Shown in pieces: positions 7,308 to 38,171 of a stretch of DNA of 64,000 nucleotides (the stretch's first letter is position 1; the number at the start of each line of letters is the position of its first letter). The notes beneath the pieces were generated by a model. The model was not told the origin of the DNA, did not search any database, and saw only the letters and a list, made by a program, of their open reading frames with translations. Source of the DNA: Spiroplasma endosymbiont of Polydrusus cervinus (GTDB lineage Bacteria > Bacillota_I > Bacilli_A > Mycoplasmatales > Mycoplasmataceae); NCBI RefSeq assembly GCF_964019755.1, contig NZ_OZ026469.1, positions 372,001 through 436,000 on the forward strand, in the 5' to 3' direction. The position numbers were made by a program, and so were the translations under genes.

Positions 7308-9971
7308 ATGGGAAAAGAATTAACAAAGAAATATAATCATGACTTAGTCGAAAAAGGAAAGTATCAATTTTGGAAAACAGCAGATTATTTTACAGCGGAT
7401 GTGAAAAGTAAACAACCAAGTTTTAGTATTGTCATCCCCCCCCCAAATGTAACTGGAAAACTACATTTAGGACATGCTTGGGATACAACATTACAAGATT
7501 TAATTATTCGTTATAAAAAATTAATGGGATTTGATACATTATATTTACCAGGAATGGATCATGCCGGAATTGCTACCCAAGCAAAGGTTGAAGAACGCTT
7601 ACGCGTAACAAAAAAGATGTTACGTCATGATTTAGGGCGTGAAAAGTTTATTGAACAAGTTTGAATATGAAAAGAAGAATATGCCGAAGTTATTCGAGAA
7701 CAATGAGCTAAGTTAGGATTAGCATTAGATTATTCTCGCGAACAATTTACTTTAAATGACAATTTATCAGCAGCAGTGCAAAAAGTCTTTATTGATTTAT
7801 ATCAAAAAGGATTAATTTATCGTGGCAAACGAATTATTTCATGAGACCCATTGCAAAAAACTGCTTTATCAAATATTGAAGTTATTTATCAAGAGCAACA
7901 AGGAAAAATGTATTATTTTAAATATTTTTTAGAAAATAGTACAAGCGAGTTTTTAACAATTGCAACAACTCGCCCAGAAACAATGTTTACTGATCAATGT
8001 GTTGTCGTTAATCCAAATGATAAGCGCTATCGACAATATTGAAATAAGAAAGTCGTAAATCCAGCGAATGGTGAATTAATTCCTGTTATTTGTGATGATT
8101 ATGTTGATCAAGATTTTGGAACAGGGGCAATGAAATGTACGCCAGCCCATGATGCTAATGATTTTGAAATTGCTTTGCGTCATCATTTAGCAATGCCAAT
8201 TTGTATGAATTTAGATGGGACAATGAATGAACTAGCTGGGGAATATAATAACCAAGATCGTTTTACCGCTCGTCAGAATTTAGTTAATGATTTAACTAAA
8301 CAGAAATTAGTCGTTGAGATTAAAGATCATTTTCATCAAGTCGGTTTTTCAGAACGAAGCGGGGCTATTGTTGAACCATATTTATCCGATCAATGATTTT
8401 TTAAAATGGCTTATTTTGCTGAAAAAATTATTAAATTTCAAGCAACAAATGACCAAATTAAGTTTTACCCGTCTCGTTTTAATACAACATTAATTAATTG
8501 AATGGAAAATGTACAAGACTGATGTATTTCACGTCAATTATGATGAGGGCACCAAATTCCTGCTTGATATCATAAAGATGATTTAACAAAGATTCATGTT
8601 GGTCTAACAGCACCAGATAATAGTAAAAATTGAGTGCAAGATGAAGATGTCTTAGACACTTGATTTTCGTCGGCATTATGACCAATGACAACTTTAGGAT
8701 GAATTTCAGATGAAACATTATTTCAACGTTATTTTCCAACCAATGTTTTAGTTACTGGTTATGATATTATTTTCTTTTGGGTTTCGAGAATGATGTTTGA
8801 ATCATTAGAATTTACCAATAAAAAACCGTTTAATGATGTTTTAATTCATGGATTAATTCGGGATGAAGAAGGGCGTAAAATGAGTAAATCCTTAGGAAAT
8901 GGGATTGACCCAATGGATGTTATTAAAGAATATGGGGCTGATACCTTACGTTATTTTTTAGTTACAAATAGTGCGCCAGGTCAAGACTTGCGTTTTTCTT
9001 TAGAGAAGGTAAAAGGAGCATGAAATTTTATTAATAAATTATGAAATGCTACTCGATATATTGAAATGAATTTACCAAGTAATTTCAACCCATTAGCTAA
9101 TTTTGACCAAGAGATTAAGAAATTATTAGCACATCAAGCGAATGAGATTGATCAATGAATTTTAACGGAATTAACAAAAACAATTGTGAAAGTTCAAACT
9201 AATATGGAGAAATATGAGTTTGTGTTAGTCAGTAAAGCTTTGTATGATTTTGTGTGAAATAAGTTTTGTTCATGATATATTGAATTAACAAAAGTTAATT
9301 TGCAAAGCGATAATGTCACCATTCAAATGGCATCGTTACAAACATTATTTTATGTGCTAAAACAAATTTTAATTATGATGCATCCTTTTATTCCATTTGT
9401 AACAGAAGAGATTTATCAGAAACTAAATTTAAAACAATCAATTATGTTAGAAAATTATCCAACAACTAATTTTAATTATGATGTTGATTATTTAAATGTA
9501 GTGACCGAAATTGTTGCTGCTATACGAGAAGTGCGTAGTGATTATCAAGTTAAAAAACAACAGGAAATTGAAATTTGAGTTGATCAAACAAGTAGCAAAA
9601 ATAAAATTAATACAGCATTAATTACTTTAATTAATGAATTTATTTTAAAAATGGTAAATAGTAAAATTATTGGTGTTTTGCAACAAAAAGATGAGCATCA
9701 AAAATATTTAACAATTCCATTATCCAATGTTATTTTAGAAGTTGTGGCAAATGATATTATTGATGAAACCACTGAACAAGCAAAAACAACAATCGAATTA
9801 ACTCGGCTAGAGCAAGAAATAAAACGAAGTAAAAACATTTTAGAAAATCAAAACTTTTTAGCAAAAGCTAGCGCGGAAAAGATTAAGATTGAGCAAGAAA
9901 AATATTCCCAGTATTTAGAGAAATATCAACAGTTAAAAGGGAAAATAACTAATGAGAACTCTAACAATTAA
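7308..9971 (+). CDS. valS: valyl-tRNA synthetase
   Basis: Class I synthetase charging tRNA-Val. 887 aa with many TGA Trp codons. Class I signature [14 protein letters not shown] near residue 46; the editing (CP1) domain follows, with [16 protein letters not shown] near 220 and [16 protein letters not shown] near 275. The second signature [14 protein letters not shown] lies near 523, then the anticodon-binding domain and a short C-terminal coiled coil from about 825 ([18 protein letters not shown]). ATG has the ribosome site AAAGGATAG. Regulated by the T-box leader. Its last 20 bases overlap the start of trmFO, indicating co-transcription originally. Confidence 0.98.
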
Positions 9972-12493
9972 TATTATTGGGGCCGGATTGGCAGGAACAG
10001 AAGCAGCGTACCAATTAGCACGAAGAGGTTTTAAAATTAACTTATATGAGAGTAAACGGTTAGTTAAGAATCTGGTGCAAAAACAAGATTCATTTGCTGA
10101 ATTAGTTTGTTCTAATTCCTTACGCAGTGATAGTTTAACGAATGGAGTTGGCTTATTGAAATATGAAATGTAGACTGCACCCTGTTTAGTAAGTATTAAT
10201 AAAAAGGTTTACAAACTTTCATTTATTATATATTTTTCTTTTTGGTTTGAATATCATTTATTTCATTTTTTAACATCATTAATATATTCATTATGAGATT
10301 TATAATTTTTATTATGGATTGTTCCTTTTTAAGTAATGAATGAAAACTTTCAATAATAATGTTGTCTGCACAATGATAATTTTTACCCATTGAAATTATA
10401 ATTTTGTTATCTAAACATTTACTATTATAATCTTTAGATGTATATTGATATCCGTGATCTGAATGAATTATTGTTTTATTTAGATCTTTTTTTATTTTTT
10501 TAATTTTATTAATTGCATCATTTAAATTATCAATTACAAGTTTATTATTATTAAATTTTGATCATTTTACATCAATAATTTCTTTAGTATATCCATCAAG
10601 TATTGTTGATTGATAATGTTTTTTACCATTTCAAATTAAATAAGTTACATCAGTAAATAAAATTGAAAATCTTTCTTTAATATCATTAAAATTACGATTT
10701 ACTAAATCAGGATATTTAATTATATTTTTATTTCTATTTTGTTTTATTAATATTTTTCTACGCATACGCTTTACATATTCAGCTTGAATATTATTTTCTT
10801 TCATAATTCGCAATACTTTCTTAGCATTATAAACAATGCCATAATCTTCTTTTAAATATTTGGTAATTCGACGATAACCAAATTGTTTTAAATTTTCTTC
10901 ATAGACTTTTACAATATTTTTTAATGATTCGCTATTCTTACCATTACTTGAATAATTTTTATATTTATCTCAATAACTACGCTTTAAATCTGTTATATCA
11001 AGTAATAAATTTAGTGGATATTTATTAATGTTTTCTTTGATAAAAGATACAATTTTTTTATTTAATTGTAAAAGTCATGAAGCTTTTTTAGTAATTCATA
11101 CCTAACTTTGTAATAGTTTAAATCTCTTTTTTCAAATGATTCTTTTGGACCTTTATTGGTGTTTAAAATTCCTTTCTTAAAATTTTCATACCATGAAGCA
11201 ACAGTTTTTTATTAATTTGATATTTTTTTGCAATAAAACTTATACTATTATTTTTAACCTCTTGTACTATCATTTTTCGAAAATATGCTGTATATTTATT
11301 AAATTTTTGTCATTTTCTTGCCATATAAAAATGCACCTCCTCTAAAGTTTAGCAAAGACTTTTTTTATTTACTTACTCTTTTGGGTGCAGTCTAATGTTA
11401 GCCTTTGATTCCTTAATTATTAAGGCAGCCTATGCAAGTCGTGTTCCAGCGGGAGGAGAATTAGCTGTTGATCGCCACCAATTTTCAGCCTATATTACAA
11501 CATGGTTAACAAATAATTCAAATGTAACTTTAATTGACCAAGAAATAACAACAATTGATTCGAATGCCATTACCTTATTTGCTTCTGGTCCATTAACAAC
11601 TCCAAAATTGCAAACTACAATGCAAGAATTATTAGGGCAAGAATATTTTTATTTTTATGATGCTGTTGCCCCAATTATTACCAAAGAAAGTATTAATTTT
11701 ACAAAGCTATATTATAAGTCACGTTATGACCAAGTCGATAGTAAAGATTATATTAATTGTTCAATGACAAAAGATGAGTTTGACTTATGAGTTCAAGCAT
11801 TAATTACTGCGGAGACAGTAACTTTACATGATTTTGAAAAAGAAATTTATTTTGAAGGATGTATGCCAATTGAAGCAATGGCGAAGCGAGGAGTTAAGTC
11901 CCTATTATTTGGACCACTAAAACCCGTTGGTTTAGAGAAATCAAATGGGGAACGACCATATGCTGTTGTTCAATTACGGCAAGATGATGCAATTGATACA
12001 TTATATAATTTAGTTGGTTTTCAAACTAATTTAAAATTTCCAGAACAACAACGCTTGATTATGATGTTGCCAGGATTAGAACAGGCTCATATTGTACGAT
12101 ATGGGGTTATTCATAAGAATAATTTTATTAATTCTCCTGTTTTGTTAAATCAATTTTTACAATTAAAGAATTATCCAAATATTTTTTTTCGCAGGGCAAA
12201 TTACTGGTATGGAAGGATATGTTGAATCAGCGGCAACGGGAATTATTAGTGCATTGAATATTGCAAAACTATTACAAAAAGAACCGATGATAGCATTACC
12301 CCCAGAAACAATGATGGGAGCATTAGTAAATTATATTATTAATGCGTCAACAACTAATTTTCAACCAATGAAATCTAACTTTGGAATTATACCTGCGTTT
12401 GACAAACGCTTTAAAAATAAACATGAAAAATATTTAGCATATAGTAATCGAGCATTAACAATTTTAAAAGATTTTATTACAAACAATGTGTAA
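9952..12493 (+). pseudogene. trmFO: tRNA uridine-54 methyltransferase, disrupted
   Basis: Folate/FAD-dependent m5U54 tRNA methyltransferase. The N-terminus has the dinucleotide-binding motif [20 protein letters not shown], then [20 protein letters not shown]. Translation stops where the IS150-type element enters at 10171. It resumes after 11394 with MLAFDSLIIKAAYASRVPAG, and removing the element plus one copy of the ATG duplication restores GLLKYEMLAFDSL exactly. The downstream half has [14 protein letters not shown] and [10 protein letters not shown] second lesion, an eight-T run at about 12182-12190, shifts the frame between YPNIFF and [15 protein letters not shown]. The gene is therefore inactive on two counts, unless the T run is a sequencing error. 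Confidence 0.95.
10171..11394 (-). mobile_element. IS3 family (IS150 group) element, copy 1
   Basis: 1224 bp with 12-bp inverted ends TAGACTGCACCC/GGGTGCAGTCTA, similar to IS150 ends, and a 3-bp ATG duplication (10168-10170, 11395-11397). orfA starts at ATG 11324 (minus) with SD GGAGGTGC and encodes a helix-turn-helix protein. orfB ends at 10209 and encodes a DDE integrase with FTDVTYL, IIHSDHGYQYT and NIIIESFHSLL. They are joined by a slippery A AAA AAG. Here orfA has lost one A in NKKTVASW (six As instead of seven), so it is frameshifted. It also has 3 nt fewer than the other copies just after the slippery site. Confidence 0.93.
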
Positions 12494-12869
12494 ATTGTAA
12501 ATACCAAATCATAAAAAATTAACTAAATTAATAGTGGTAGTCGGAAAAATTTTATTTTTGGCATCGTGTACGATGAACCTCCAAAAAACAACTCTTGTTA
12601 AATAAAAAGGGTTGTTTTTTTATTTGTAAACCCATAATTATTAATTAATTCAGAGAAAGGGTAGCATCTTAAATTCTTAAAATAGAAACTTTTTATCACA
12701 ACTTTAAGTTAACAAAAAAAGTTGTATTACACATTTATTAAATATCTTAGAAATCTTTACAAAGTGTACCTGTTTTTTCTCCTAATTTAAGGTGTTGTCC
12801 TTTCTCTGTTTTAGTTAATTAATTTGGCTAATAAATAAAAAAACTTAATATCAAAGAAAGGAGTAAGTA
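12494..12869. repeat. half palindrome, terminator and prophage left boundary
   Basis: About 375 bp without a gene. It begins with the left arm of the 80-bp palindrome (12494-12534), which stops abruptly at its centre and joins unrelated sequence, a likely recombination joint. A terminator-like hairpin lies at 12583-12621. The rest is AT-rich leader sequence up to the first phage gene; no attachment-site repeat could be identified by eye. Confidence 0.6.
12583..12621 (+). terminator. intrinsic terminator after trmFO
   Basis: AAAAAACAAC pairs with GTTGTTTTTT across a loop of about 19 nt, followed by a T tract. A similar but decayed sequence lies near 3215-3262 downstream of the BMP gene. Confidence 0.6.
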
Positions 12870-13049
12870 ATGGAAATTAATACGAAACAAACAATATGTG
12901 ATGTTGATAATTGCTATAAATCAATATCATTCATTACCGAAGAATTTTTATCAAATAAAGTTTTATGAACTTGTGATAAACACAAAGATTTATTAAATCG
13001 TACAAAAGATAAGAAACAAAAGCGATTTTATCAAAAAATAGAAAATTAA
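12870..13049 (+). CDS. small prophage protein with paired cysteines
   Basis: 59 aa, starting MEINTKQTICDVDNCYKSI. CDVDNC and a later WTCDKH give three Cys and one His spaced like a small zinc ribbon. Good ribosome site AAAGGAG 5 nt before ATG. It is the first gene of the rightward early module and lies just upstream of the structured RNA region. I do not recognise the family; a small Zn-binding phage regulator is possible. Confidence 0.6.
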
Positions 13050-13059
13050 AAAATTATCT

Positions 13060-13640
13060 TTGATTGAGAAACTGGTTATTTTAAACTTTGATTTTATAAA
13101 ACAACTTAATGCAGTGTGGGACGGTTATTTTAAATAACTGAGTGCTTCCATAAGAACATGAGTTTAAGCTCATTTCCACAGCCAGCCGAGGCAAGTACTG
13201 AAATAGTGTATGAGGAAATATGTAAATCGGCGCTGGTTTATTAGAACTAAGCGATAGTCGTGATAAGTGCAAGGTCAATATCAAACGACAATAAAGATAG
13301 AGATGGCCACTTTATAAATAAATTTGCGATAGATATTGTCCCCATCGAGGATGGCAGCGGTTTAAAAACCACAAAGCCAGCATTAGGCTCTTCAAGGTGC
13401 AAGTGAATTTATTTTAAAAACTGAACGTTTTGACCTGAAATGGCGCGGATGAAGAGAGAAAATTCTCTGGCGTAAACAATAAAAAACAACTGTCTATTAT
13501 CTAATAATAAATAAATATTAAATATATTATCGCCACCGCTCACCCCCAGTGAAGCGGATGGCGTAGTAAATAAGTAGATAAATACTTATATAACTAATTA
13601 TCGCTTTGGCACTTTCACTTGGGAGTGAGTGCCAGCGAAT
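13060..13640 (+). ncRNA. large structured G+C-rich region, candidate phage non-coding RNA
   Basis: About 580 nt between two small phage genes with no credible ORF in either direction. G+C is far above its surroundings: 13141-13200 is 28 of 60 by hand count, against 13 of 60 for 14221-14280. Strong stems: ATGAG/CTCAT (about 13155-13170), AGAGA/TCTCT (about 13454-13470), CGCCACCGCT with AGCGGATGGCG (13531-13563), and a three-part stem TCGCT, GGCACT, TCACT with AGTGA, GTGCC, AGCGA (about 13601-13638). Length, structure and phage setting resemble the large ornate phage RNAs (ROOL, GOLLD), but no match can be asserted by eye. Strand is inferred from the flanking genes. Confidence 0.7.
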
Positions 13641-13660
13641 TAAAAATAGGAGGAAATATA

Positions 13661-13942
13661 ATGGAATATAAAAGTTTGTATATTAATAAAACTTGAAATG
13701 AAATAACAACATTATTTGATTGAGTGAATTGTCAACCTTTTAATTGTCGTATTTCACATCATAAAAATCATTATGATTTACAATGTTTAGAATGAGCAAA
13801 AATGTATTTAAATTTATTTGAAAATAAATGAGATGTTATTGCTTCTTATATGCAACATTACAAAATTAACGATATTTTAGATTTAGCATCAGATGGTTGA
13901 AAAATATTACAAATTGAGAAAAAAATCAATCAAATAATTTAG
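13661..13942 (+). CDS. small prophage protein, unknown
   Basis: 93 aa, starting MEYKSLYINKTWNEITTLF, with a perfect AGGAGG 7 nt before ATG, immediately downstream of the structured RNA region. Rich in Trp (mostly TGA) and aromatic residues, with one CQPFNC pair. No known domain recognised. It ends in TAG, and the next ATG follows after 9 nt, so it is probably the first translated gene of the early operon after the RNA. Confidence 0.65.
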
Positions 13943-13951
13943 AAGGTTTAT

Positions 13952-14119
13952 ATGAAAAAGTTAAATAAAATTTGTCTTAAATAAAGATATTGAGGTTATT
14001 GTTTTTATAAAGAATGCAATAAAGAAAATAAATTGAATGAATTAATCCTTAAAAGTTATTCAGTATCGCAAGAAGATATTACGGATGAACATTGAGCATT
14101 AAACAATAAAAATAATTAG
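13952..14119 (+). pseudogene. small Cys-rich prophage protein with internal stop
   Basis: In one frame: MKKLNKICLK, a TAA codon, then RYWGYCFYKECNKE and on to LNNKNN with TAG. The uninterrupted protein would be 55 residues with Cys spacing suggesting a small zinc knuckle. A single C-to-T change (CAA to TAA) would explain the stop. No restart codon follows, so the product is probably lost. Confidence 0.55.
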
Positions 14120-14132
14120 GAGGAATAAGAAA

Positions 14133-14423
14133 ATGTCATATTGTATTCGTGATTACTTAAATGAAAAGTGAATTAATAATAACGCATTAAAAATTAGTAA
14201 TAAAGATATTATTTATGCACAAATTGATAGTGACTATGATATGAGTTGAGAATTAAATTTATATCTTAAATTTGGTAATGAAGAGCGACATGTAGGTAAT
14301 ATTTTATTGCCAAAATATTTTGACTTAAATTTAAAATGATATGAAATTGATGAGGTTAAAGGTTTAATAGATGATTATTTAGAAAATGAAGAAGCAGACT
14401 ACGAAGTGATAAATTATGAATAA
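14133..14423 (+). CDS. small acidic prophage protein
   Basis: 96 aa, starting MSYCIRDYLNEKWINN and ending EEADYEVINYE. SD AGGAGG precedes ATG. Acidic, with no motif recognised. Its last 8 bases overlap the next ORF, typical of a compact phage operon. Confidence 0.65.
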
Positions 14424-14562
14424 TATGTGAAAAGATGAAAGTGGTTATGTTTATAGCGAAGAAGATTTATTTAATATCGCATTAGAAGAATGTTATTCAG
14501 AAGAGACTGCTTACGAATATATTGATAATTTAATAAGTGAAGTGGATTTGAAGGAAATTTAA
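14416..14562 (+). CDS. 48-aa acidic prophage protein
   Basis: MNNMWKDESGYVYSEEDLFN onwards, strongly acidic, overlapping the upstream gene (ATG before its TAA) and followed 2 nt later by the next ATG. Translational coupling is likely. Function unknown; short acidic early phage proteins are sometimes inhibitors of host enzymes, but nothing here shows that. Confidence 0.55.
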
Positions 14563-14564
14563 TT

Positions 14565-15341
14565 ATGGCAGATTTAAAGTTAAATAATCAAATTAAAAAT
14601 ATTACCTATCCATTTTATTTAAAAGGTAATGATTTTAAAGAATTAAGTTTAAAAGCATTATCGATTAAAAATTGAATTGATAATCACGGTAAAGAATTAG
14701 CAGAGTTTATCTATCGTCATCTTAATCATTATGCATTAAATGGTTATCAAGATATACATTTAAAAGATATACCCAGTGCTATTAGTAAAATTGATTTTGT
14801 TTTTAGAGAACCATTAGAATTAATAAAAGATTTTAAAGATGAATTAAATCGAATTAGAGTTAATATTATTAATTTAGAAAAAGTACTTCAAAATAATAAA
14901 ATTGAAATTAAAAATAGCCTAATACAAGTTCAATACTTAAAACAACAACAGTTTATTCAAACTAAAAAACAAGAACAAGAAAATAGGGTTGAATATGCTA
15001 ATAACTTAACGCCTGATATGGGGTTAGACATGGACCAAATTGAAGATGAACAAGTTCGTGTTATGGAAGATGTAGCAAAAATAGAACAAGATTTAGAAAA
15101 AACTACTAGTAAATTTCGGAAAGAAAAAATATTAATTAAAGATATTGATATTTTGGGTGTTAATGATGATTTTTTACAAAATGCTGATAAATTAGAACTT
15201 ATTAATTTAATTAAAAATTATTTAATTGTTGATGAACAAATTGTTAAAAACGAAATTAAAAAACAATGAGATAGTAATAAAAACATTAATACTATTGGTG
15301 TTAATGGAATTAAATTCAAAATAAATAAAGGAGAGAAATAA
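14565..15341 (+). CDS. coiled-coil prophage protein upstream of RecT
   Basis: 258 aa, starting MADLKLNNQIKNITYPFYL. Residues about 85-200 form a long charged region with predicted coiled coil (ELNRIRVNIINLEKVLQ, later EDVAKIEQDLEKTTSKF). It sits directly before recT (2 nt gap), the position that in many phages is taken by a nuclease or recombination partner. No nuclease motif is visible. It may be an early recombination accessory protein, but that is only position-based. Confidence 0.6.
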
Positions 15342-15343
15342 TT

Positions 15344-16213
15344 ATGAATAATCAAATGGGAATAAAAGAATTAGTAGCAACAGCAGTTAAAGCATATGAA
15401 TTAAATGTTAATTCTAAATATTTACAAGAAAATTTAATTGCTTTACAAGAACTAAAATTAAAAAATAATCAAAGTTATATGAATTTAGTGGGTAATGCTG
15501 ATAATGGAAAAATTACAGCCTTAGGAATTATTAATTTAAGTAATAAAGGTTTAATATTCGGAAAAGATTTTAATATTATTCCATTTAAAAATAAATTAAT
15601 AACTATTATTGATAGTAGTGTGTTTCAAAAAAGAATGGAACAAGAAAATTGAATGTTAAAACGAGGAATTATTTATAAAAGTGAAAAATTTGTATGAGAT
15701 ACCGATTTACAAAAACCAAAATTACATGAAATAGATTTTATGACAAATACCAGTCAATATGAAAATATTATTGGTGCTTATGCTTTTGGAATTAATCGTT
15801 TAACTGGTGAAACAAAAGGAATTTTATTAAGAAAAGCTGATATTGACCGTTTAAAAAATAGTAGTCCAAGTGAAAATAGTGAATATTCGCCTTGAAATAA
15901 ATGACCAAAATAAATGGTTGAAGCAAAATTATATCGTAAATTAGCCCAAGAATTAGGTATAGATATTACTGACATTGATTTAGATGAAAAAGAAATAAAA
16001 GAAGATAGTAATTTTGATTATATACCTTTTAATGATATTACTGTCGCCAAAAATAAGGGGCATATGAGCGATGAACCATTATCAAATAATATAAAAACCC
16101 TATCTTATGAAGAAATAGCGGACACTAATGATAATGTAGTTAAAGAAGAAGATATATCAAATGTAGTACCAACAGTTAATAATAATGATGAAGAATGAGC
16201 AAGATGGGAATAA
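15344..16213 (+). pseudogene. recT: RecT-family single-strand annealing protein, nonsense-interrupted
   Basis: RecT anneals complementary strands during phage recombination. The N-terminal part (189 aa, 15344-15913) has the family core: INLSNKGLIFGKDFNIIPFK, RGIIYKSEKFVWDTD, and IGAYAFGINRLTGETKG. It ends SPWNKWPK followed by TAA, and the same frame continues with ATG at 15914: MVEAKLYRKLAQELGIDI. In the family this region is continuous (NKW-(x)n-KLAQELG), so the TAA is a nonsense mutation, probably from CAA or GAA. The C-terminal piece is acidic and ends at 16213. Reinitiation at the adjacent ATG could give a split protein; no SD precedes that ATG. Confidence 0.8.
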
Positions 16214-16701
16214 AAATGGGTATTGACCACCCATCAGGAACTGGTACTACGGCTATTGTTGCTTTTAAAGATAATATGTTATTAGATAAACAAGAATTTA
16301 TAAACAAAGATTGAAAAGAACACTCTAAATTTATTATAAATTATTTGAAAAATGAAAAACCATTTGAGGAAATATTATCAAATAATAATAAACTAAAATA
16401 TTTAATTTTTATAGAAAATTGTTTATATACAAATGCCAATGGCTCAAAAGATAGAGATAATTTATTAAGACTATTAGGTTCATTAGAAACACAAGGATAT
16501 ATTGCTACTGTTTCACCAAAACACACTAAATCAGTTGTTAAAAATATGGAAAATTTAAGTAAATATAATGATAGTTGTTTATGAGAATTTGATAAAGATA
16601 GTAATTTAATTTATCAATATGGTAAAGGTTGAAAATATAATAATGAGAAAATAAGTAATCATTTACGAAATGCCATTATTATTGCTAATTATGAGGTTTA
16701 A
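16195..16701 (+). CDS. RuvC-like Holliday junction nuclease (candidate)
   Basis: 168 aa, overlapping the end of recT. It begins MSKMGIKMGIDHPSGTGT, giving a first acidic residue in a GID motif followed by a Ser/Thr/Gly turn, as in RuvC/RNase H-fold resolvases. YLIFIENCLY near residue 80 gives a second acidic residue at the end of a beta strand. TQGYIATVSPKHTKSVV resembles the resolvase region that follows. The C-terminal NHLRNAIIIANYEV sits where RuvC has D-H-x-x-D-A, but Asn replaces Asp, so activity is uncertain. Position next to recT supports a recombination role. Confidence 0.5.
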
Positions 16702-16705
16702 TATT

Positions 16706-16885
16706 ATGAAAAAATCATATAATCAAAAAACAGGAAAATATTATTCTTGTAAAATTCGAAATGTTAATTTTTACTTAAATAAAAATGAAGAAAAAGTTTG
16801 AAATCAATTATCTAACTTTGATACTTATTCGCAACGAATAGAACATCTTATTAATTTTTATATAAGTCACAACAAAGAAAAATAA
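16706..16885 (+). CDS. 59-aa prophage protein
   Basis: MKKSYNQKTGKYYSCKIRNV onwards, basic N-terminal half and a helical C-terminal half (QRIEHLINFYISHNKEK). The pattern of a beta strand followed by helices could fit a small ribbon-helix-helix DNA-binding protein, but this is a guess. Last gene of the rightward arm; a bidirectional terminator follows. Confidence 0.55.
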
Positions 16886-16912
16886 AAAATAACCTTAATT
16901 GGTTATTTTTTT
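16885..16912. terminator. bidirectional terminator between convergent prophage arms
   Basis: AAAAATAACC and GGTTATTTTT pair across a 6-nt loop, with A/T tracts on both sides. It marks the meeting point of the rightward early arm and the leftward late arm. Confidence 0.85.
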
Positions 16913-25401: not shown

Positions 25402-26632
25402 TAGACTGCACCCTGTTTAGTAAGTATTAATAAAAAGGTTTACAAACTTTCATTTATTATATATTTTTCTTTTTGGTTTAAATATCATTTATTTCATTTT
25501 TTAATATCATTAATATATTCATTATGAGATTTATAATTTTTATTATGGATTGTTCCTTTTTTAAGTAATGAATGAAAACTTTCAATAATAATGTTGTCTG
25601 CACAATGATAATTTTTACCCATTGAAATTATAATTTTGTTATCTAAACATTTATTATTGTAATCTTTAGATGTATATTGATATCCGTGATCTGAATGAAT
25701 TATTATTTTATTTAAATCTTTTTTTTATTTTTTTAATTTTATTAATTGCATCATTTAAATTATCAATTACAAGTTTGTTATTATTAAATTTTGATCATTT
25801 TACATCAATAATTTCTTTAGTATATCCATCAAGTATTGTTGATTGATAATGTTTTTTACCATTTCAAATTAAATAAGTTACATCAGTAAATAAAATTGAA
25901 AATCTTTCTTTAATATCATTAAAATTACGATTTACTAAATCAGGATATTTAATTATATTTTTATTTCTATTTTGTTTTATTAATATTTTTCTACGCATAC
26001 GCTTTACATATTCAGCTTGAATATTATTTTCTTTCATAATTCGCAATACTTTCTTAGCATTATAAACAATGCCATAATCTTCTTTTAAATATTTGGTAAT
26101 TCGACGATAATCAAATTGTTTTAAATTTTCTTCATAGACTTTTACAATATTTTTTAATGATTCGCTATCCTTACCATTACTTGAATAATTTTTATATTTA
26201 TCTCAATAACTACGCTTTAAATCTGTTATATCAAGTAATAAATTTAGTGGATATTTATTAATGTTTTCTTTGATAAAAGATACAATTTTTCTTTTATTTA
26301 ATTGTAAAAGTCATGAAGCTTTTTTAGTAATTCATACCTAACTTTGTAATAGTTTAAATCTCTTTTTTTAAATGATTCTTTTGGACTTTTATTGGTGTTT
26401 AAAATTCCTTTCTTAAAATTTTCATACCATGAAGCAACAGTTTTTTTATTAATTTGATATTTTTTTGCAATAAAACTTATACTATTATTTTTAACCTCTT
26501 GTACTATCATTTTTTGAAAATATGCTGTATATTTATTAAATTTTTGTCCTTTTCTTGCCATATAAAAATGCACATCCTTTAAAGTTTAGCAAAGACTTTT
26601 TTTCTTTACTTACTTTTTTTGGGTGCAGTCTA
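25402..26632 (-). mobile_element. IS3 family (IS150 group) element, copy 2
   Basis: Same 12-bp ends as copy 1. orfA (26561-26298, minus) is intact, with seven As in NKKTVASW, and reads MARKGQKFNKYTAYFQKMI onwards. orfB has one extra T in a poly-T tract near 25720, which shifts its frame in the DDE domain. No target duplication: left flank CAC, right flank TTT, and the two sides belong to unrelated regions (phage gene; palindrome and nusB), so a deletion or rearrangement has used this copy. Confidence 0.92.
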
Positions 26633-36953: not shown

Positions 36954-38171
36954 CCAAAAAAGTAAGTAAAGAAAAAAAGTCTTTGCTAAACTTTAAAGGA
37001 GGTGCATTTTTATATGGCAAGAAAAGGACAAAAATTTAATAAATATACAGCATATTTTCGAAAAATGATAGTACACGAGGTTAAAAATAATAGTATAAGT
37101 TTTATTGCAAAAAAATATCAAATTAATAAAAAACTGTTGCTTCATGGTATGAAAATTTTAAGAAAGGAATTTTAAACACCAATAAAGGTCCAAAAGAATC
37201 ATTTGAAAAAAGAGATTTAAACTATTACAAAGTTAGGTATGAATTACTAAAAAAGCTTCATGACTTTTACAATTAAATAAAAGAAAAATTGTATCTTTTA
37301 TCAAAGAAAACATTAATAAATATCCACTAAATTTATTACTTGATATAACAGATTTAAAGCGTAGTTATTGAGATAAATATAAAAATTATTCAAGTAATGG
37401 TAAGGATAGCGAATCATTAAAAAATATTGTAAAAGTCTATGAAGAAAATTTAAAACAATTTGGTTATCGTCGAATTACCAAATATTTAAAAGAAGATTAT
37501 GGCATTGTTTATAATACTAAGAAAGTATTGCGAATTATGAAAGAAAATAATATTCAAGCTGAATATGTAAAGCGTATGCGTAGAAAAATATTAATAAAAC
37601 AAAATAGAAATAAAAATATAATTAAATATCCTGATTTAGTAAATCGTAATTTTAATGATATTAAAGAAAGATTTTCAATTTTATTTACTGATGTAACTTA
37701 TTTAATTTGAAATGGTAAAAAACATTATCAATCAACAATACTTGATGGATATACTAAAGAAATTATTGATGTAAAATGATCAAAATTTAATAATAACAAA
37801 CTTGTAATTGATAATTTAAATGATGCAATTAATAAAATTAAAAAAATAAAAAAAGATTTAAATAAAATAATAATTCATTCAGATCACGGATATCAATATA
37901 CATCTAAAGATTACAATAGTAAATGTTTAGATAACAAAATTATAATTTCAATGGGTAAAAATTATCATTGTGCAGACAACATTATTATTGAAAGTTTTCA
38001 TTCATTACTTAAAAAAGGAACAATCCATAATAAAAATTATAAATCTCATAATGAATATATTAATGATGTTAAAAAATGAAATAAATGATATTCAAACCAA
38101 AAAGAAAAATATATAATAAATGAAAGTTTGTAAACCTTTTTATTAATACGTACTAAACGGGGTGCAGTCTA
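36954..38171 (+). mobile_element. IS3 family (IS150 group) element, copy 3
   Basis: Ends TAGACTGCACCC/GGGTGCAGTCTA. orfA starts at 37014 (SD GGAGGTGC) but has six As in NKKTVASW and is frameshifted. The slippery A AAA AAG lies at 37249-37255. orfB is open from the -1 frame (KKASWLLQLN) to TAA at 38133, with DVTYL, HSDHGYQYT and IIIESFHSLL, so the integrase part is intact. No target duplication (left TCA, right TAA). The right flank contains a 22-bp scrap of the IS30-type transposase and a palindrome end. Confidence 0.92.

Follow-up and report, generated by a model that had tools for sequence, protein, structure and literature searches.

Among the described systems closest to the locus studied here, ROOL is a non-coding RNA of phages and prophages that contains multiple pseudoknots and whose function is unknown, and GOLLD, also encoded by phages and prophages, consists of a conserved part and a more variable 5' part (PMC12286853). 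The canT RNA of Tn916 is roughly 340-450 nt long and acts in cis without other genes of the element (PMC11658703), and the put RNAs of phage HK022 are about 70 nt long and made of two stem-loops (PMC9378689). Few complex phage RNAs of unknown function are known, and their roles are an open question.

We analysed a stretch of 64,000 nucleotides (the window), belonging to a 1.12 Mb Spiroplasma chromosome in which UGA is read as Trp. Positions 13111-13475 on the + strand, 365 bases with putative ends at both coordinates, correspond to a structured RNA, and it is highly likely that this segment encodes a previously undescribed + strand RNA of a family of Spiroplasma phages of about 19-22 kb. A sequence-only reading of the window had suggested an undescribed structured non-coding RNA of a Spiroplasma phage, and this suggestion held: the RNA is absent from Rfam 15 and from the papers found. 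The Rfam cmsearch recommended in that reading returned no family for the region, ROOL, GOLLD and introns included, either at the gathering threshold or up to E=10, the only hits being below threshold (e.g., Teg49 and MCS4), and seven homologous loci searched up to E=1 gave no match. Our literature searches, which left most subscription journals uncovered, the original MaM-2019a paper among them, returned no description of the RNA.

The Spiroplasma RNA resembles ROOL in being a phage/prophage non-coding RNA with multiple pseudoknots (PMC12286853) and GOLLD in having a conserved portion with a more variable 5' portion. However, it is about half as long as ROOL, which forms a multimeric RNA cage and is often found near tRNA islands, and far shorter than GOLLD, many members of which exceed 800 nt; no tRNA was detected in the prophage, nor anywhere from about 4.0 to 31.7 kb of the window. 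The resemblance to these two classes proposed in the sequence-only reading was thus not sustained, as no model matched up to E=10 and the homologues measured 235-388 nt from the start box to the PG helix (median 332.5), against at least about 580 nt. Identity with either ROOL or GOLLD was rejected on the same grounds, namely the lack of a covariance-model match, the shorter length and the lack of nearby tRNAs. The RNA is a new phage RNA family, distinct from ROOL, GOLLD and introns, which we place in the broad, already known category of structured phage RNAs.

The G+C content of 13111-13475 was 39.7%, compared with 20.8% directly upstream and 22.7% in the early genes, and no other stretch of 365 bases sampled from 10 to 27 kb reached this value; the earlier hand counts of 28/60 in 13141-13200 and 13/60 in 14221-14280 were exact. 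The longest + frame (13260-13475, code 4) was free of TAA and TAG in only 2 of 71 homologues, so that no ORF is conserved, and the spacing between conserved anchors varied through all three phases. A protein-coding reading was therefore rejected, in agreement with the original impression that the region held no credible ORF. In public records the RNA is unannotated and in part mis-annotated as small hypothetical proteins. Two such annotated genes (984-1163 in locus L039 and 737-862 in L040) overlap both the RNA, at its 3' end, and the adjacent hairpin module; as the RNA core holds no conserved frame, they are probably spurious.

About 80 homologous loci were compared side by side, and helices were proposed and then counted. 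The resulting 48-pair model, comprising nine core helices and two pseudoknots, showed 93.8% of cells paired in 28 loci (23 distinct), in an alignment that leans towards the structure as it was made with a model built from most of it. Changes on both sides occurred at 20 of the 48 pairs (84 cells in all), none of 500 shuffles matched the values of the model, and partner-slid controls paired in only 38-44% of cells. The six principal helices were paired at 92-99.6% in 65 loci, above all 1000 shuffles; these counts and those of the helix variants used sequence anchors for most helices, with parses corrected by hand in a few cases, namely L018, L020 and, for the PE segment, L072-like loci. For the covariation check advised by the sequence-only reading, a tree-aware count gave 23 compensatory double changes, whereas 60 simulations preserving the number of changes per column averaged 2.25 and reached 5 at most, although recombination among prophages can inflate such counts of independent changes. 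When the full-length MAFFT alignment was put through a cruder, R-scape-like G-test with a phylogenetic null, a single pair was significant, which we attribute to the mosaic alignment and to low divergence (about 2.4 changes per column). Because these two properties limit the G-test, each helix was anchored separately, and it is on these anchored helices, not on the MAFFT alignment as a whole, that the claim of a structure is based.

Folding of the single sequence was only mildly better than that of shuffles (z of -2.2 on the + strand and -2.7 on the - strand) and left the strands indistinguishable, so the structure is supported by the comparison of homologues. RNAalifold on the whole MAFFT alignment, which is blind to pseudoknots, gave -139.4 for the plus and -134.2 for the minus strand and was not decisive. 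In the 65 loci, G-U cells exceeded A-C cells 203 to 21 when read on the + strand, thus identifying the + strand as the RNA.

The predicted fold, as shown by covariation, starts with a variable 5' domain (P1 and P2) and an H-type pseudoknot formed by PA and PB; the long helix PC then encloses PD, whose loop takes part in the other pseudoknot, PE, and the hairpins PF and PG close the structure, all on the + strand. The 5' part is modular, P1 being followed by module X or Y, and the further helices P0, P1 and P2 covary. P1 (13116-13179) pairs GTGGGA (13116-13121) with TTCCAC (13174-13179), with an exchange between GTGGGA/TCCCAC and GTGGAA/TTCCAC, and contains two hairpins at 13123-13139 and 13158-13173. 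P2, here module X (13182-13236, CCAGCCGA/TCGG-CG-CTGG), is swapped in other phages for the unrelated module Y (GCgGTCTA/TAGACGC), in which GC/GC changes to GT/AC. PA (13257-13289) pairs GTCG (13257-13260) with CGAC (13286-13289), varying to GTGG/CCAC, and is pseudoknotted with PB (13265-13312), which joins AAGTG (13265-13269) to CACTT (13308-13312) and TATC (13279-13282) to GATG (13302-13305). The PB variants include AAGTG/CACTT, AAGTC/GACTT and GTGTC/GACAC on the one part, and CATC/GATG and TATC/GATA on the other.

The 12-bp helix PC (13316-13414) is formed by 13316-13327 and 13403-13414 and occurs as AAATAAATTTGC/GTGAATTTATTT, AATTAAATTTGC/GTAAATTTAATT and AAATATTTATGC/GCATGAGTATTT. It encloses an optional insert with its own hairpins (13328-13379), missing or replaced in many homologues, and the PD hairpin (13380-13400), in which GCATT (13380-13384) pairs with GGTGC (13396-13400) and which varies among GCATT/GGTGC, GCACT/GGTGC, GCATT/GATGC and GTAAC/GTTGC. 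The most telling of the predicted helices is PE (13388-13456), in which the PD loop CTCTTCA (13388-13394) pairs with TGAAGAG (13450-13456); the two sides change together to TTCTTCA/TGAAGAA, TCCTTCA/AGAAGGA, TCCTTTA/TAAAGGA and TCTCTC/GAGAGA, and to CTCTTTC/GAAAGAG in the most distant locus, L020. The PF hairpin (13426-13448) is less well aligned, with 75-79% of cells paired and one column exchanging CG and UA in 10 loci, and the PG hairpin (13455-13468) is 97% paired through GAGAG/CTCTC, AGACA/TGTCT and GTGGA/TCCAC.

Thirteen matches to the RNA were found in the genome to which the window belongs, and within the genus 8 of 14 genomes contained it, with up to 37 matches each. It also occurs in the phage records OL689226, OL689227 and OL689230 and in several S. 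citri plasmids. A search of 84,980 species genomes by sequence pattern yielded S. phoeniceum, S. poulsonii and three single hits in unrelated bacteria, which we take as chance. A covariance model of the core, run with strict filters over 148 genomes at the level of the order and 395 at that of the class, found nothing outside the genus. In IMG/VR the exact pattern had no hits and the capsid protein no relatives. The RNA was thus found only in Spiroplasma, in one family of phages of about 19-22 kb carrying transposase genes. One of the S. citri records, a 22 kb circular 'plasmid' (L041, NZ_CP047430.1), has a phage terminase alongside the RNA and early genes and appears to be the phage in circular form. 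An insertion of about 1.2 kb splits the RNA in two prophages (L084 and L085) of another Spiroplasma, which indicates that it can be lost, at least in resident prophages.

The prophage in the window starts at about 12559, its left end (TGGCATCGTGTACGATGAA..., 12559-12580, + strand) directly following the host trmFO region, and the left end, the + strand early genes and the - strand late genes match the plan of the approximately 19 kb Spiroplasma phage MaM-2019a. This end sequence recurs in about 50 loci, where the AT-rich host DNA before it differs from one locus to the next. Four types of left end were recognised (TGGCATC, TGTATAAT, TGTAGAAT and TGTAAACT), the ends beginning with TG, and the phage records carry differing transposases (IS30, IS285-like and UPF0236) near the other end. 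End types and transposases together suggest transposable phages that may exchange transposases along with their ends. The host gene at 9952-12493, which we take to be trmFO-like from reading the sequence rather than from a database search, looks broken, with an IS3-type transposase fragment at 10226-10813 and a frame change near 12209; copies of this fragment also lie at 25440-26573 and 37528-38133.

Behind the prophage end, an intrinsic terminator facing inward (12585-12620, + strand; a hairpin of -11.2 kcal/mol followed by a T run) is conserved in most loci and probably insulates the phage from host read-through. It is followed by the RNA either directly or after an optional small leader gene (here 12870-13049, + strand, 59 aa in code 4, with no Pfam or PHROG match), which some loci with the RNA lack, and then by the early genes. 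Bases 13060-13110 fall outside the conserved RNA. Directly 5' of the RNA lies a CTTAAT/TTTAAT box (13105-13110, + strand); a CAA(C/T)TTAAT-like box occurs at this place in at least 72 of 77 loci, whichever 5' module follows, and its resemblance to a -10 sequence makes it a putative promoter element. In the loci read, the RNA stands ahead of the early genes on the same strand, and in the genome of the window early-gene loci were paired with an RNA locus in 8 of 9 cases. Here a ribosome-binding site and the start of the first main early gene (13647-13661) open an early operon (13661-16885, + strand) that includes a RecT-like protein (15344-15913, RecT PHROG E=1.4e-7), and a two-way terminator at 16883-16912 separates the early (+) from the late (-) genes.

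The comparison of loci shows that the predicted fold is kept by selection at a fixed place, independently of the gene that follows. Transcription would start behind the insulating terminator at the prophage end and, given such a start, the early (recombination) transcript would have the RNA as its 5' portion. The most likely role is that of a folded element heading this transcript, by a mechanism that we can only infer. Since the fold persists where adjoining genes have been exchanged, and is followed by no conserved switch of the ribosome-site or terminator type, the RNA is probably a self-contained element of the early transcript. It might act in cis on the transcribing polymerase or on the fate of the transcript, as leader RNAs of phages and mobile elements do, an option of somewhat less than even probability for which canT of Tn916 (PMC11658703) and put of HK022 (PMC9378689) would be the models. 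It might instead be cut free and act in trans, which is possible and would find its models in GOLLD and ROOL (PMC12286853). We regard cis action and a released trans-acting RNA as about equally likely.

The most specific form of cis action would be a processive antiterminator like put or canT, in which the nascent RNA binds RNA polymerase so that terminators are passed; we consider it a tentative reading. The Spiroplasma RNA heads the early transcript of an integrated element that has an insulating terminator at its end, as in Tn916, and it is independent of which gene comes next. Like canT (PMC11658703), it is a structured RNA, a few hundred nt long, of a mobile element that bears an insulating terminator at one of its ends, and it possibly acts in cis; like putL/putR (PMC9378689), it is located near the start of early phage transcripts. 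However, the insulating terminator precedes the RNA rather than following it, an order that differs from that of canT, with which no kinship in sequence was noticed short of a direct comparison, and the put RNAs, with about 70 nt and two stem-loops (PMC9378689), differ from an RNA of up to about 390 nt with two pseudoknots. From the RNA to 16.88 kb no terminator-like hairpin was found on the + strand, in a search by which weak AT-rich terminators can be missed, and no target for antitermination emerged within the early operon. This apparent lack of downstream terminators would disfavour simple antitermination.

A stand-alone ornate phage RNA that would work in trans like GOLLD or ROOL, perhaps as a multimer, likewise has a limited probability. 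It would agree with the phage setting, the two pseudoknots, the exchangeable outer modules and the preservation of the fold independently of its neighbours, but the RNA is shorter, has no Rfam match, is followed by no terminator directly behind it and lies in a prophage free of tRNAs; the last two features disfavour a close analogy to GOLLD or ROOL. It is possible, though less likely than not, that ROOL and GOLLD are joined here by a third class of ornate phage RNA that stands alone and is unrelated to either; if so, growth of the phage in Spiroplasma would be accompanied by production of a folded, perhaps self-assembling molecule with exchangeable outer domains. Compact, with a well-supported double-pseudoknot fold, numerous natural variants that differ by exchanged modules, and a copy number reaching dozens in Spiroplasma symbionts and plant pathogens, the RNA offers a ready case for structure and function studies.

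A role as riboswitch or as leader controlling translation of the first early gene is improbable: the RNA does precede a ribosome-binding site and a gene, but this gene differs among loci, the spacer between RNA and gene is not conserved and there is no conserved expression platform. Even less probable is a DNA site, such as a replication origin or a transposase or packaging site, which the vicinity of the prophage end and the transposase genes of these phages might suggest, since compensatory changes in pseudoknotted helices and the excess of G-U over A-C cells point to a single-stranded RNA of one strand. A self-splicing intron or its remnant, evoked by the size and the pseudoknots, has a negligible chance, as no group I or group II model matched up to E=10 and the RNA sits between genes with varying flanks rather than inside a conserved gene.

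Finally, we considered the two G+C-rich hairpins at 13531-13563 and 13601-13638 (together 13531-13638, + strand), the strongest of the region. The sequence-only reading had treated 13060-13640 (about 580 nt) as one region; it is indeed G+C-rich and structured, but it joins two separate elements, and the stems quoted in that reading exist as these hairpins, belonging to a neighbouring module and not to the RNA. Hairpin 1, or both, lie ahead of other genes in loci devoid of the RNA (L013, L046, L095-L102, L104 and L105), and the RNA occurs without the hairpin module in L018, L020, L025, L026, L032, L081, L083 and L090. Since each occurs without the other, the hairpins constitute a separate, mobile module and were set aside as parts of the RNA. 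The mobile hairpin (CCGCC..CCGCTCACCCCC..AGTGAAGCGG..GGCG) precedes various phage and plasmid genes (L046, L095-L105), and L093 has the second hairpin with its loop in inverted orientation.
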